From: Gonapodya prolifera JEL478
Taxonomy: Eukaryota > Monoblepharomycota > Monoblepharidomycetes > Monoblepharidales > Gonapodyaceae
DNA: 64,000 nt
Assembly (NCBI GenBank): GCA_001574975.1
Contig: KQ965734.1
Coordinates: forward strand, 769,637-833,636
Direction of reading: 5' to 3'
Within the stretch, counting starts at the first letter, position 1, and the number at the start of each line of letters is the position of its first letter. A program made the position numbers and the translations under genes. Below are positions 16,116-28,249 of this stretch, one piece after another. Under the pieces are notes generated by a model. The model saw only the letters and a list, made by a program, of their open reading frames with translations. It ran no database searches and had not been told where the DNA came from.

Positions 16116-18870
16116 ATGAGCGCTCTCAAGCTCCGCGTTTCCGCCGCGCCGCTGTCCGCCGCTGACCTCCCAAAACTCACAAAGAATCCCGCATCCGCAT
16201 CCCACGACGAGTATCTTGTCCATGTTTCCGTGGTTCCCTCGGTGCACCCGCACTCCTCGGATGGGGTCACTCTCCCAGCTGAGCAATCGCAAACACTGCC
16301 AACAACACCTGTTGATATTATCGCCGTGGTTGATGTGTCTGGCTCCATGGGATCAGAGGCGACGCTGCTGACGGAAAATGGAACAACCGAGTCCGGGGGC
16401 CTAACTATTTTGGATGTGGTTAAGCATGCTGTTCGGTGAGTCACCAACGTCCCCATGACCGAGAACACCATTAGTTTGAATAAACTGACACGCTCGCTGA
16501 CCACTGTCCACTCGCATCTCCTGCAGCACAATAATACACACCCTCGGTCCAGAGGACAGACTCGGCGTCGTCGCATTCTCAGACGGTGCGTCTGTCGTTG
16601 TACCTCTCACACTCATGACCGAGTACGTTGGGCACCATCGTTGCACTTCCCTCTCTCGTCGCGTACTTACCCCGTTGTCACCACAGCGCCGGCAAATCCG
16701 AAGCCGACGACCTCCTCTGGTCCCTCCGTGAAGACTCGTCCACAAACCTCTGGGCGGGCCTCGAATGCGCCACGAAGCTGTTCTCATCTCTGGCCTCCGA
16801 AGCACCACCGCGCCAATCGACGCGGCACATCTTCCTCCTCACGGACGGCCAACCCAACAGCGTGCCCTCCACGGCCACCATGCTCTCGTCTCTCCGCTCC
16901 ATCCGCGACTCCTCCCCCGGGGGGCACTTCCCCGCCGACGCGCTCACGACGTTCGGGTTCGGGTACTACCTCGACTCGGACCTCCTTCTCGCCCTCGCTG
17001 TGCACTCGGGCAGGCCCAGCATGTACAGCTTCATCCCGGACCCGGGGATGGTCGGGACGGCATTTGTGAACGCGGTCAGCTCTGCCGTGTGCAAGGTTCC
17101 CGTGCGTAATGTGCGCGTGGCCCTCGAAGTGGAGGGGCCGCAGGGTACCCAAGTTCACAAGGCGGAAGGAGAGGACGCGGCCACAGGAGCCCAGACGCCC
17201 ATCCAAATCGCGGATTGGGGGTGCCAGATCGATGTGGGAACCGTGGCGTATGGACAACCGAGGGACACGGTTCTTCGAGTGCAGGTCCCGAAACCAGCTG
17301 CTGGAACCCCTCCAAGCGCCGTAAAGCTGCACGCAGTTCTAAAGTACGATCTTCTCAGTAAGGAGCAGGCAGACATAAATGGAACCGAGGTGAGCCCTCA
17401 AGGCGGCGTTGTATTTGCTGGACTTTTCCCCCTTGGTGTTGACCCTTGCAACCTCCGCCATCTCTTTGTCGCCGTTCAAACCCAACCATAAATCCACACC
17501 CGTCCGAGCGATAGATCTCATCAACTCTCGCGCTCCCTCCCACGTCTTCTACGTCTCCCAATCCACTTCTCACGCACCACCACCTCCGACTTCTCTTCTC
17601 GCGCACGCTCTTCCACGCTCTTGTAAACACGCCAACCAACTCCCTCGGTTCCGAAGAAGCACCCGGGCCAGCCCTCCTCTCCGCGCAGGCCGCGCTTGGA
17701 GACTACATTGCTCTGGCGCGTGGGAAGTTCAACGAGATACAGACGGCGGGGCGGGGCACAGACCCAGCCAGCGATGTCGTGGGCGATTTGAAAGCCCTCC
17801 TTGAGGACGCCGAGGGACAAGCCACGATGGCGTTAAGTAGAGCGTCGTACTATCAGAAATGGGGAAATCACTACTTAAAGTCTCTTGCAAGGGCGCATGT
17901 TCTCCAAGGTACAGTTCTGATCGCGAAAATGAGTTCATTCGTGGACTCACTCAGTCACTCCTTCTTCAAATCCCCCCTTTCTCAACGTGTACCAGAATGC
18001 GCTAACTTCAAGGACCCAGGGCTTCAACGATACTCTAAGGCCCTCCAGGACGCATCTCTCTTCTCTCGCACCCGGGATGCTGCCGACGCCGTGTTTGCTA
18101 ATTTGCAGATCACAGGTACTCTCGTCCAGTACGATGATTACGGCAGGGGTGGTGGCGGCGGTGGGGGCGGGCAGAGGGTAAATATGGCCGCATGGAACAG
18201 CTCCGGCAACCCATGCTTCCCCGCAACAACGTCCATTCTTCTCGCTGACATGACGCACGCCCCCGTGTCCTCCCTCCGTCGAGGCACACTCGTCGTGTCG
18301 CCCTACATGCACCCAGACGGTACTGCGGGGCTAGGCACCGCTCGAGTGAGAACCGTTCTGGAGAGTAGGGTGGTTGGTGGCGTGTGCGACTTGGTGGGCC
18401 TTGTGGGTAAGACAGGGAAGGGTGTCGTTCAAGTTTTTGGAAGCGCAGAAGAGGGTGACCAAGTGCTCCAGATTACACCGTGGCACCCAGTCGCTCACTT
18501 GGGCAAGTCGGGACCCAAATGGGTCTTCCCCGCCGAATTGCAAGCTGCTCGCCCAATGCCAGTGCCGTCAGTATGCTCCATTATTCTGGAGCCGGTGTTC
18601 ACAGATTTGACAATCTCTGACGGGCCTACGGGGCATATCGTGGCCCGCCCGCACGCCGTCCTTCTGTCTACTTCACACATCCCGGTGATCACTCTCGCAC
18701 ACGGCCTGGACGACTCTGCGAGGGTCGTTGAGACAGCGCCAGGTTATCCGGAGCACTGGAAGAGTTTGACGAGGGTGGTGGGACATGAAGTGTGGGGCGG
18801 AGATGGAGTGGTAGAAGAGCTGAAGGGCCGGGAAGGTTGGGACGAAGGGTGGGTGAGGATTGGGTGGTAG
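16116..18870 (+). CDS. VWA-Hint (Vint) protein
   Basis: The N-terminal half is a von Willebrand A domain with the metal-binding MIDAS motif VVDVSGSMG, then RLGVVAFSDGASVVVPLTLMT and HIFLLTDGQPNS. Exons 16116-16435, 16527-16622 and 16687 onward are in phase. A linker region follows (YYQKWGNHYLKSLARAHVLQ, then NFKDPGLQRYSKALQD after an intron 17909-17995). The C-terminal half is a Hedgehog/intein-type Hint domain of the fungal Vint kind: it begins at SGNPCFPATTSILLAD, with the Cys that would act as nucleophile, and contains LQITPWHPVAHL with the block-B His. Splicing between about 17390 and 17680 is not resolved. Such proteins occur in fungi and amoebae; their role is unknown, and autoprocessing is an inference from the Cys and His. 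Confidence 0.83.
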
Positions 18871-25420: not shown

Positions 25421-26082
25421 TTGTCTCACAAATATTTGATGTGATTAGCGCCATCCCTACAACGTGCCCGCAAGAATTTACTCACGCAGATTGCCCAGCG
25501 CATTCGTTGCGCCACCCTTCCCCCTATACGTCGGGCCCGCCTTGAACAGCAACGTATCACCCTCCGCCATGTGATTGCCCAAGGGGGGAAACGTAGCGGT
25601 AATTTGAGCACAACCACCTCCAGTGAGACTGGCGCTGAGGGACTCGCGAACGAATCGGCAGGGAAACCGCCTGCTGTCGCGATGGTGGCCAGTAGTGACG
25701 GATTGCAGCAACCCTTGGTAGTCATGCCCAAGAGCGGACCGGGTGCAAGAACGGCTGTGACAGTGGGAAGGAAAGCGCTGGCGGAGTTTCGGTTCAATCC
25801 ATCCGTGCGGAGATTAAAGGAAGGGAAGGATGCCGTAGTGATCAGCAAGGAGAGGGAAGGAACGGGTGGTGTCCAAGCAGAGAAAGCCGAAGGGCCCAGC
25901 GAAGAACTGTGTCCGTGGGGATGAAAGTGGACCTGTGAAGTCTAAGTGCGCGGGATGCTCTGAATACCAGTGTTTGGGGGGGGACATGTCTTTTCTTGTT
26001 TGTCTTTGCAATACAATTGAATTATCCTTCTTTTTTTTTTCGATGGCAAGTGAATGTTGAAGGAAAATCGGAAACGAAAATA
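25421..26082. other. Unresolved stretch, open on both strands
   Basis: Both strands have open frames. On the minus strand, 25478-25711 contains GNHMAEGDTLLFKAGPTY and GKGGATNALGNLR, which reads like real protein and ends at a GTGAGT donor. On the plus strand, 25571-25924 could be a 3' exon of the gene before. I cannot choose between them or name either. A run of T at about 26031 precedes the transposon-like element. Confidence 0.3.
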
Positions 26083-26219
26083 CTGAAGTCTGACCTGACC
26101 CTTTGCCTGAAGTCTGACCTCGACTCACTGAAGTCTGACCATTGTGCTGAAGTCTGACGCGCCACCCTGAAGTCTAACTTTCACCCACTGAAGTCTGACC
26201 GGCCACCCTGAAGTCTGAC
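26083..26219 (+). repeat. Left array: seven copies of CTGAAGTCTGAC
   Basis: Copies start at 26083, 26107, 26128, 26147, 26167, 26188 and 26208. Six are exact and the fifth has one change (TAAC for TGAC). Spacers of 7-12 bases differ in sequence. The step is close to two helical turns, placing all copies on one DNA face. Confidence 0.93.
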
Positions 26220-27026
26220 CTCCGTATCCAAGAAACGTGGAGAGCAGCGGTGTTTTATTGTAGCATTCTTCTTAAGTGTTTTGCGAACTAGTTTGTACCA
26301 AAATCGTGGAGGAGATTATGTCGAACGAACACCAGCCAGTGAGAACTTCTACTATACAAAACCACAAGAGCTCTTCATTGTACGGTGTAGAGAGAAGGGC
26401 TCAGGGTAGAGTAGAAGTTAGCTTATCGGCGAAACGACTGTGATGCTGATCAACCGGGGGTGCTGGCGCACGCGCTGGATTTGTATTGGGACCTGACATA
26501 CACTACGTGTACGTGCACAGCATTACTTTTTCCTAACTTAAAGTGACTTGCCGGGTCACACCCACACTTATGCTGGGAGGGCTCAAAGGAATAGCCTGTG
26601 GGATTTGGGATTACAGCACTCGACACTTGGCGTGACCCACTGCTTCGTGCCAAGTTGGTTGTACGTAAAAGCATGCACGTTTCGCAAACGGCGGTAACGC
26701 GCTGTCGCACCAGCATAGATATAATCTCGAAAGGCGGTCAGTGGTGTGTACCTTATGTATCTACTTGGTGGCGTGCCAACGACAGTATCTCATCACCATA
26801 AGACAAGGAAGGTAGCCATGTTAGATATTATCACTAATATCTGCTCCCATTCATGCAGACTAACTGCCGCCCAAAGTCCAGAAGAAAAGTTGAAGAGTCC
26901 TGCAAGTCTCCAACTGTGCCAGAAGTGCGGACAATCGGACTTCTCACAATTGCACAGGAAGTTATGCAGTCTTCTTAGACTGTATGGATATAATCAATAA
27001 AATCAGAGATGAAGCTTTGTAGACAT

Positions 27027-27240
27027 TTAAACCGCGACGAACTCCAAATGAACCTTCGACGCCAACCGAAGTTGCTTTTCCTCCCCTTGGAAATCGATTT
27101 TGCGGTAATGGAACGGCGTTCCGTTTTCCACCACGACAGAGCAATCCGCCTACAACGACCACGCGCCCCTGACTTCCTTTGTCTCCTGCGCGAGCACGCC
27201 GTCCTGGTCCGTGACGTTCCACCATACGCAGTGACACAAC
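27027..27240 (-). pseudogene. Protein-coding fragment inside the element
   Basis: On the minus strand one frame reads VWWNVTDQDGVLAQETKEV, then GAWSL, a TAG stop, and in the same frame DCSVVVENGTPFHYRKID and QLRLASKVHLEFVAV to a TAA at 27027. Apart from the single stop it reads like a conserved domain, but I do not recognise it. It lacks an obvious start. It may be a captured host gene piece, as transposable elements often carry, or a short gene whose intron I misread. Confidence 0.4.
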
Positions 27241-27327
27241 TAAATTTTACCGTAAAAGAATTGCCATAACCCGCCACAATGTAGCGCTTTTTCTCCTGAG
27301 CTCGCTGTCAGATTTTGACTCATCAAA

Positions 27328-27486
27328 GTCAGACTTCAGTGTTTGAAAGTCAGGCTTCAGGAGGCGGGTGAGACTTCAATGTAATTTAGGTCAGACTTCA
27401 GTACAAGAGTCAGACTTCAGTGCTATAATTTCAGACTTCCGTGGGTCAAGGTCAGACTTCATGAACCCTTAAATGTCAGACTTCAG
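27328..27486 (-). repeat. Right array: about eight copies of GTCAGACTTCAG
   Basis: Copies lie near 27328, 27349, 27368, 27390, 27409, 27430, 27451 and 27475; about four are exact and the others differ at one to three positions. They are the reverse complement of the left array word. The two outermost copies are 24 bases apart, as on the left, which makes the arrays mirror images. Confidence 0.9.
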
Positions 27487-27719
27487 TATCTTTCAATGGG
27501 AAAACGATGACCAAGTTTTTCGGCTAAAGCGTTTAGGAGACTGAACTTCGAGAGCAAGCAACAGGGTTGAGGAAAGCAATGCGACTCGATCGCATCGCTC
27601 ATCACGCCAGAGTCGCTCACGTCAACCGAATCTTCATCGCCACTCCCGCGGCGAGTCCATTTGGCTTCCACACCAAAATTGGGACGATCACACCATTCTC
27701 CTCCACCTCTGCTTGCCAC

Positions 27720-28249
27720 ATGCCACCCAACAAGAAACTCACCGTAGATGAACGATCCGCTGCACTTTCTGAGCTGGGAGCGACAGGATGGGTCGACACG
27801 AGTCCTGAAAGGGATGCAATCCGAAAGAAGTACAAGTTCGCCGACTTCAACCAGGCTTTCGGTGCGCTTTATGGCAGCCTCTTGCCAAGAATATAATGCC
27901 AATACTTGCTCAACGCATTTTACATTTGTTTTCCTTCCCTGGATAGGATTTATGACAAGAATTGCTCTTCGGGCAGAGACTGTTGACCATCACCCCGAAT
28001 GGTTTAATGTGAGCTCCGCTCTTGTTTGCTAACAGAGCATAATCGTGAGAAATCAGCTCTTTGATGACGTAGGTGTACTCCACTGTGGAGATTACGTGGA
28101 CTTCGCACGACGCCAAAGGTAACAAGACGGCAAATCACGACTGATAAAAGGTTACAGAGCTCATGATATCCGCACTTGCAGGTTTAAGTAAGAGAGATGT
28201 AGAATTCGCCAAGTTTTGCGATAAAGTAGCCGCTGAGATGGGGTCATGA
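27720..28249 (+). CDS. Pterin-4a-carbinolamine dehydratase (PCD/DCoH)
   Basis: Dehydrates 4a-hydroxytetrahydrobiopterin, recycling the cofactor of aromatic amino acid hydroxylases. Exons 27720-27861, 27947-28008, 28073-28118 and 28182-28249 join in phase to 105 aa, the normal length. Family motifs are [34 protein letters not shown], the active-site run [26 protein letters not shown] and a final helix, [10 protein letters not shown]. An in-frame ATG at 27567 would add 51 residues with some presequence character, so a mitochondrial form is possible. The gene begins 232 bases past the right tip of the transposon-like element. Confidence 0.93.

Follow-up and report, generated by a model that had tools for sequence, protein, structure and literature searches.

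Genomic setting and interior of the element

Within the window, that is, the whole 64,000-nucleotide stretch of fungal DNA analysed, there is an element bounded at both ends by inward-facing arrays of a 12-base word and with no recognised coding content, which is probably intergenic and located upstream of a probable dehydratase gene. Two genes that surpass the Pfam cut-off, Fungal_trans and the beta chain of the mRNA capping triphosphatase, mark the window as fungal, and others are more generally eukaryotic (eIF3c, UTP20, LsmAD and dynamin). Pfam matches to Vint (Hint-domain, E 4e-15) and Vwaint (VWA/Hh intein-like, E 1e-14) were also observed at 17515-18867 (+). No tRNA or Rfam RNA was detected in the window. 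The interior of the element and the neighbouring gene are located as follows:

26220..27327, no strand assigned: interior of the element; no protein family recognised, transposase not found
27720..28009, plus strand: first two exons of the neighbouring host gene (context), probably a pterin-4a-carbinolamine dehydratase, with an intron at about 27862-27946

In the neighbouring gene, two stretches match PF01329 with scores of 22.8 and 25 bits, which fall just short of the curated threshold of 26, and splicing out 27862-27946 gives one continuous frame. Its likely start, according to the reading of the start codon, is some 225-235 bases away from the right end of the element (226 from the putative tip described below).

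When the seven interior ORFs of at least 50 amino acids and the six frames with X at stops (26222-27318) were compared with Pfam, no match was obtained at the curated cut-off, the best E being 0.05. The lack of a transposase inside the element is as expected of a non-autonomous copy. Furthermore, the window has 100 stop-to-stop stretches of at least 150 amino acids; when 38 of them and two shorter ones were compared with Pfam, no transposase was recognised. The interior also contains, near the left array, a 14-base inverted repeat (93% identity; 26344-26357 and 26406-26419) with a 48-base loop, which could be a relic hairpin or a product of chance.

Arrays of a 12-base word

An earlier note on this DNA had described seven copies of a word at the left end and about eight, in mirror orientation, at the right end. 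Both counts were confirmed when up to two mismatches were allowed: seven copies of CTGAAGTCTGAC lie on the plus strand, facing inward, at 26083-26219, and eight lie in the inverse orientation at 27328-27486, all the words of one end sharing one orientation. The arrays and their words are:

26083..26219, plus strand: left array, seven copies of CTGAAGTCTGAC facing inward, at steps of 24, 21, 19, 20, 21 and 20 bases
26083, 26107, 26128, 26147, 26167, 26188 and 26208, plus strand: words of the left array, six of the seven exact (one mismatch in 84 word bases)
27328..27486, minus strand: right array, eight inverse words, at steps from the tip of 24, 21, 21, 19, 22, 19 and 21 bases (six mismatches in 96 word bases)
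27328, 27349, 27368, 27390, 27409, 27430, 27451 and 27475, minus strand: words of the right array, four of the eight exact, the others with one or two mismatches

The right array carries six of the seven mismatches. A candidate ninth right copy (27307-27318; four mismatches, 1.7 bits) was too weak and was left out of the count.

The statistical support for these arrays is clear within the window. CTGAAGTCTGAC has 17 matches in it at up to two mismatches, against 6.2 expected, a number reached by none of 100 shuffles, and 15 of the 17 fall inside the two arrays, as do all ten exact copies (six on the plus strand and four on the minus strand). A blind scan was also carried out for exact 8-mers with at least three different letters, occurring at least three times within 150 bases and with their reverse complement likewise clustered no more than 6 kb downstream; this locus was its only result, and the same scan returned nothing from 20 first-order Markov sequences used as controls. 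Further decayed arrays were not found elsewhere in the window among the 45 best hits of a position weight matrix.

Pairwise identity over the 15 units amounts to 92% in the word, whereas the flanking bases, 8 following and 4 preceding each word, reach 33% on either side, against 28% expected from composition. The first of these values is helped by the fact that only copies with at most two mismatches were picked, yet the steps leave no gap for a missing copy; as for the second, spacers measure 7-12 bases, and where they have 7, the 8-base flank takes in one base of the next word. The words thus look constrained relative to spacers that have drifted to nearly random, in agreement with the selection that the earlier note had read from the mirroring, and this combination is the pattern expected of protein-binding sites; that such binding would be cooperative, as also suggested there, is a supposition. 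With the words kept while the spacers drifted to near randomness, a young tandem duplication was ruled out as the origin of the arrays.

The steps average about two helical turns and, taking a turn as 10.5 bp, no word departs from one face of the helix by more than about 0.4 turn. Measured inward from the tip, the words begin at 0, 24, 45, 64, 84, 105 and 125 on the left, and at 0, 24, 45, 66, 85, 107, 126 and 147 on the right. As had been claimed, the first step is of 24 bases at both ends, being the longest on each side, and is followed by steps of 19-22. The further claim that the two ends mirror each other strictly was borne out for the inverse orientation and for the shared first step, but not for the finer register: random draws with similar step sizes bring the inner offsets of both sides to within 2 bases of each other in 41% of cases, and the matching of spacers between arrays in register is not significant (p 0.12). 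The equal outermost step is the only mirror detail that stands out, and it is suggestive only. When compared with each other by blastn, the arms are 72% identical over 142 bases, and are not near-identical long terminal inverted repeats (TIRs).

Position of the tips

The earlier note had placed the element at 26081-27488, with the outermost words as its tips and TA on both sides. The existence of a bounded element and the presence of TA immediately outside both outermost words hold, but a boundary located 8 bases further out is better supported. This outer boundary comprises:

26066..26074, no strand assigned: putative left target-site duplication AATCGGAAA, identical to 27495-27503 at 8 of 9 bases
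26075..26082, plus strand: putative left 8-base terminal motif CGAAAATA, ending in the TA that the rival, TA-target reading takes as duplicated
27487..27494, minus strand: putative terminal motif of the right end, 8 bases long, which in the inward direction is GAAAGATA and on the plus strand TATCTTTC
27495..27503, no strand assigned: putative right target-site duplication AATGGGAAA, an 8/9 match with AATCGGAAA

Outside the word, the two ends continue to resemble each other as inverted sequences at five of six bases including the TA (null p 0.005) and at five of eight over the whole motif (p 0.03), so that terminal motif and first word together match at 17 of 20 bases between ends. Exactly 8 bases outside the outer word on each side there begins a 9-base direct repeat with one mismatch. 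Its null probability is 0.005-0.007 for symmetric tips and 0.02-0.05 for free (asymmetric) ones, and the larger figures are the fair ones, given that the repeat came from scanning for duplications. Because the inverted similarity continues past the word up to a symmetric 8/9 direct repeat, an outer boundary at about 26075 and 27494 is favoured, and it seems more likely than tips at the TA-flanked words, although it is not proven. The putative tips do not match at their first two positions (CG against GA), and the motif, being 5/8 alike between ends, is the weak part of the composite ends. The G+C content, which is 0.40 in the left flank (25924-26074), 0.48 within the element itself and 0.52 on the right (27495-27719), is of no help as a boundary marker.

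The main rival explanation, which we consider possible but rather doubtful, maintains the outermost words as tips. The element would then be a non-autonomous transposon duplicating TA and moved by a transposase of ESTA (CMCT clade), PHISTA (PIF/Harbinger) or Tc1/mariner, the last of these being known for TA duplication. The pre-insertion site would have been one TA within AAAATATCTT, instead of the single AATSGGAAA predicted with the outer tips. Such a proposal accounts for tips that carry the 12-base word as a perfect inverted repeat and are each bordered by TA. TA precedes both outer words but only 1 of the 13 inner ones, so that the tips are special under either reading. Nevertheless, a shared abutting dinucleotide occurs in about 8% of composition-matched flank pairs, which makes the TA on both sides a weak proof of tips, and moving the tips outward by one base gives an AT that would serve just as well. 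The inverted similarity, moreover, extends beyond the TA alone to three of the next four bases (at least three of four, p 0.06), a match that is nonetheless weak as support for the outer boundary once the TA is attributed to a duplication, and the longer direct repeat would have to be a coincidence. Fungal groups that duplicate TA, as would occur here if the tips were the outer words, do exist in ESTA and PHISTA; however, CMCT elements are reported to end mostly in CA..TG, while the ends here would be CT..AG, and arrays of short words are not among the features described in the sections on these groups used here, nor does the term 'subterminal' appear in the main text of that work (PMC12730594).

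Other explanations for the arrays

An assignment to a non-autonomous CACTA/EnSpm-type element, with a TNPA-like protein on the arrays as in maize En/Spm, was also considered, and is judged improbable. In its favour, several inner words read CACTGAAGTCTGAC, and 6 of the 15 words are preceded by CA. In En/Spm and in the soybean Tgm elements, as in the present case, a short motif is reiterated near the ends; that of En-1 has 12 bp, and the element-encoded TNPA binds these subterminal repeats (PMC2613891). The CACTA elements covered in that article differ in having CACTA tips distinct from the motif and a 3-bp duplication, and Tgmt*, whose tip differs from its motif, carries motifs in both orientations, whereas here each end holds a single direction (PMC2613891). 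Instead of CACTA/CACTG tips (CA..TG), both outer words read TACTG and the outer candidate tips start with CG and GA, and a scan of symmetric tips placed between -6 and +8 gave no perfect 3-base duplication.

It is also unlikely, and a little more so, that the locus is immobile, with its clustered words bound by a host protein and acting as cis-regulatory or replication-associated sites. Arrays of a single site can regulate genes, and the right end lies, as indicated above, a short distance upstream of the likely dehydratase start (some 225-235 bases). Against this, strictly inverse arrays of 7 and 8 sites, about 1.1 kb apart and with similar tips, have the look of transposon ends; such paired inverse arrays are unusual for promoters, and no second cluster exists in the 64 kb.

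The word pair was also sought in two non-eukaryotic collections, viral_contigs and genome_contigs, by pattern scans that gave 21 loci in total (2 + 3 + 16 new). The word pair was found at two loci of viral_contigs (L001 and L002) and, as an exact pair, at three bacterial loci of genome_contigs (L003, L004 and L005), and a relaxed pair at 18 viral_contigs loci including L001 and L002. None of the 21 (nine examined by sequence and 12 tabulated only) has inverse arrays at 20-base steps, which is weak evidence, as a fungal element is not expected there. L001 (8017-8112) belongs to a phage gene whose heptads (LKSD...) bring in the same 12-base word at 21-base steps, a coding coincidence. L002 is an isolated word pair and L005 a coding repeat (LKSDE). 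L003 and L004 (671-710) are 7-base-step repeats, and tandem CTGAAGT-like 7-base repeats were seen in L008 (835-867 and 2490-2515) and L020 (3-77 and 652-761); in L004 and L008 both strands carry such blocks, though with 7-base steps. A related repeat with 20-21-base steps is present in L011, on one strand, and L014 holds a 25-base tandem repeat.

Although coding repeats are indeed included among these bacterial and phage loci (the LKSD heptad of L001 and the LKSDE of L005), an origin of the fungal arrays in chance, a coding repeat or an assembly artefact can hardly be entertained: steps of 19-24 bases break any reading frame, which rules out a coding repeat, the orientation is inverse, and chance is contradicted by the 0/20 Markov controls and 0/100 shuffles.

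Nature of the element and proposed mechanism

Taking all this into account, the reading preferred here, to which a probability of about 0.5 is given, is that of a single, somewhat decayed, non-autonomous cut-and-paste DNA transposon of about 1420 bases (26075-27494), with composite ends and a layout of the Mutator/Foldback type. The outer tips and the 9-base duplication that this reading includes are supported by the sequence comparisons described above, but are not proven. The composite ends that characterise Foldback-type Mutator-like elements (MULEs) are found at this locus, with inverse arrays of 7 and 8 words in arms of 145 (left) and 167 (right) bases, including the putative terminal motif. 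It counts against the case that the element is known from one copy alone and that the duplication is imperfect.

From this anatomy and from the analogues discussed below, the following mechanism can be proposed. Each end would consist of a short terminal motif at the cleavage site, followed by an array in which a 12-base word bound by the transposase is repeated 7-8 times in direct orientation. A transposase supplied by a full-length relative would act in trans and recognise the word; the arrays would increase its occupancy of the ends and favour their pairing. Cleavage would then take place at the short terminal motifs, and the element would be pasted with a target duplication of about 9 bases. 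We infer the binding protein, its binding to the words and the superfamily, as well as the pairing of the ends and the site of cleavage, by analogy.

An alternative, which appears improbable, would be a fungal lineage in which the binding word is itself the cleaved tip, present in 7-8 copies at two-turn phasing, the tip being marked by the number and phase of the sites (e.g., by the 24-base outermost step) and not by a terminal sequence of its own.

If more copies of the proposed Mutator/Foldback-type transposon were found, its near-invariant word in near-random spacers would show cleanly which site a transposase binds and how such sites are spaced, and the arrays would help in tracing an autonomous partner within this fungus.

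Comparison with known systems

The earlier note knew of no named family with this word. A full-text literature search with the 12-mer or its complement does not contradict this, since it returned no transposon paper, the matching papers being unrelated as judged by title and the start of the abstract. The kind of architecture, on the contrary, has already been described, in Muta1, Muta5 and Tm1, as far as the consulted parts of the corresponding papers indicate. Full-text literature searches, outside reviews of fungal MULEs, brought up no fungal Foldback-type element with such arrays.

The closest descriptions come from the mosquito Aedes aegypti, in which 10 of 12 long-TIR families carry short tandem repeats in subterminal position (PMC5225508). 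In Muta1, each 145-bp TIR comprises a terminal motif of 10 bp and a 12-bp repeat present nine times, and Muta5 has an 8-bp motif followed by nine copies of a 15-bp repeat; both are Mutator-like, with 8-9 bp target duplications and end regions of 145-151 bp (PMC5225508). Muta1, a type-2 Foldback element, was active in a yeast assay, whereas Muta5 was not, and many derivative elements of both are described, those of Muta1 often with unrelated interiors and a variable number of repeats (PMC5225508). The fungal element looks similar to them in that a short terminal motif precedes an array of short repeats at each end, in the length of its arms and in its putative 9-base duplication. It differs from both in its word and in that their repeats sit in long TIRs; of the fungal element a single copy is known, with no transposase recognised in it. 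According to the sections of the same article used here, Muta1 also differs in its spacers, of 3-4 bp against 7-12, and in its terminal motif, an imperfect palindrome, which the motifs of the fungal element appear not to be (PMC5225508).

A second resemblance is to Tm1, a Mutator/Foldback element of root-knot nematodes with asymmetric 7-bp terminal motifs, repeats of 13-15 bp and target duplications most commonly of 9 bp (8-10 bp in 45 of 53 elements) (PMC3169594). In the available portion of that report, Tm1 is set apart from the fungal element by a 13-15 bp unit arranged in tandem, by TIR pairs that average 93% identity and by a 3-bp motif between tip and array; asymmetric terminal motifs outside the inverted repeat, a variable number of short repeats and a 9-bp duplication, the motifs and the duplication being putative in the fungal element, are points of resemblance between the two (PMC3169594). 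In sum, the element looks like Muta1, Muta5 and Tm1 in its layout, which is ordinary for a kind already described in insects and nematodes, and of which it is likely a new member.
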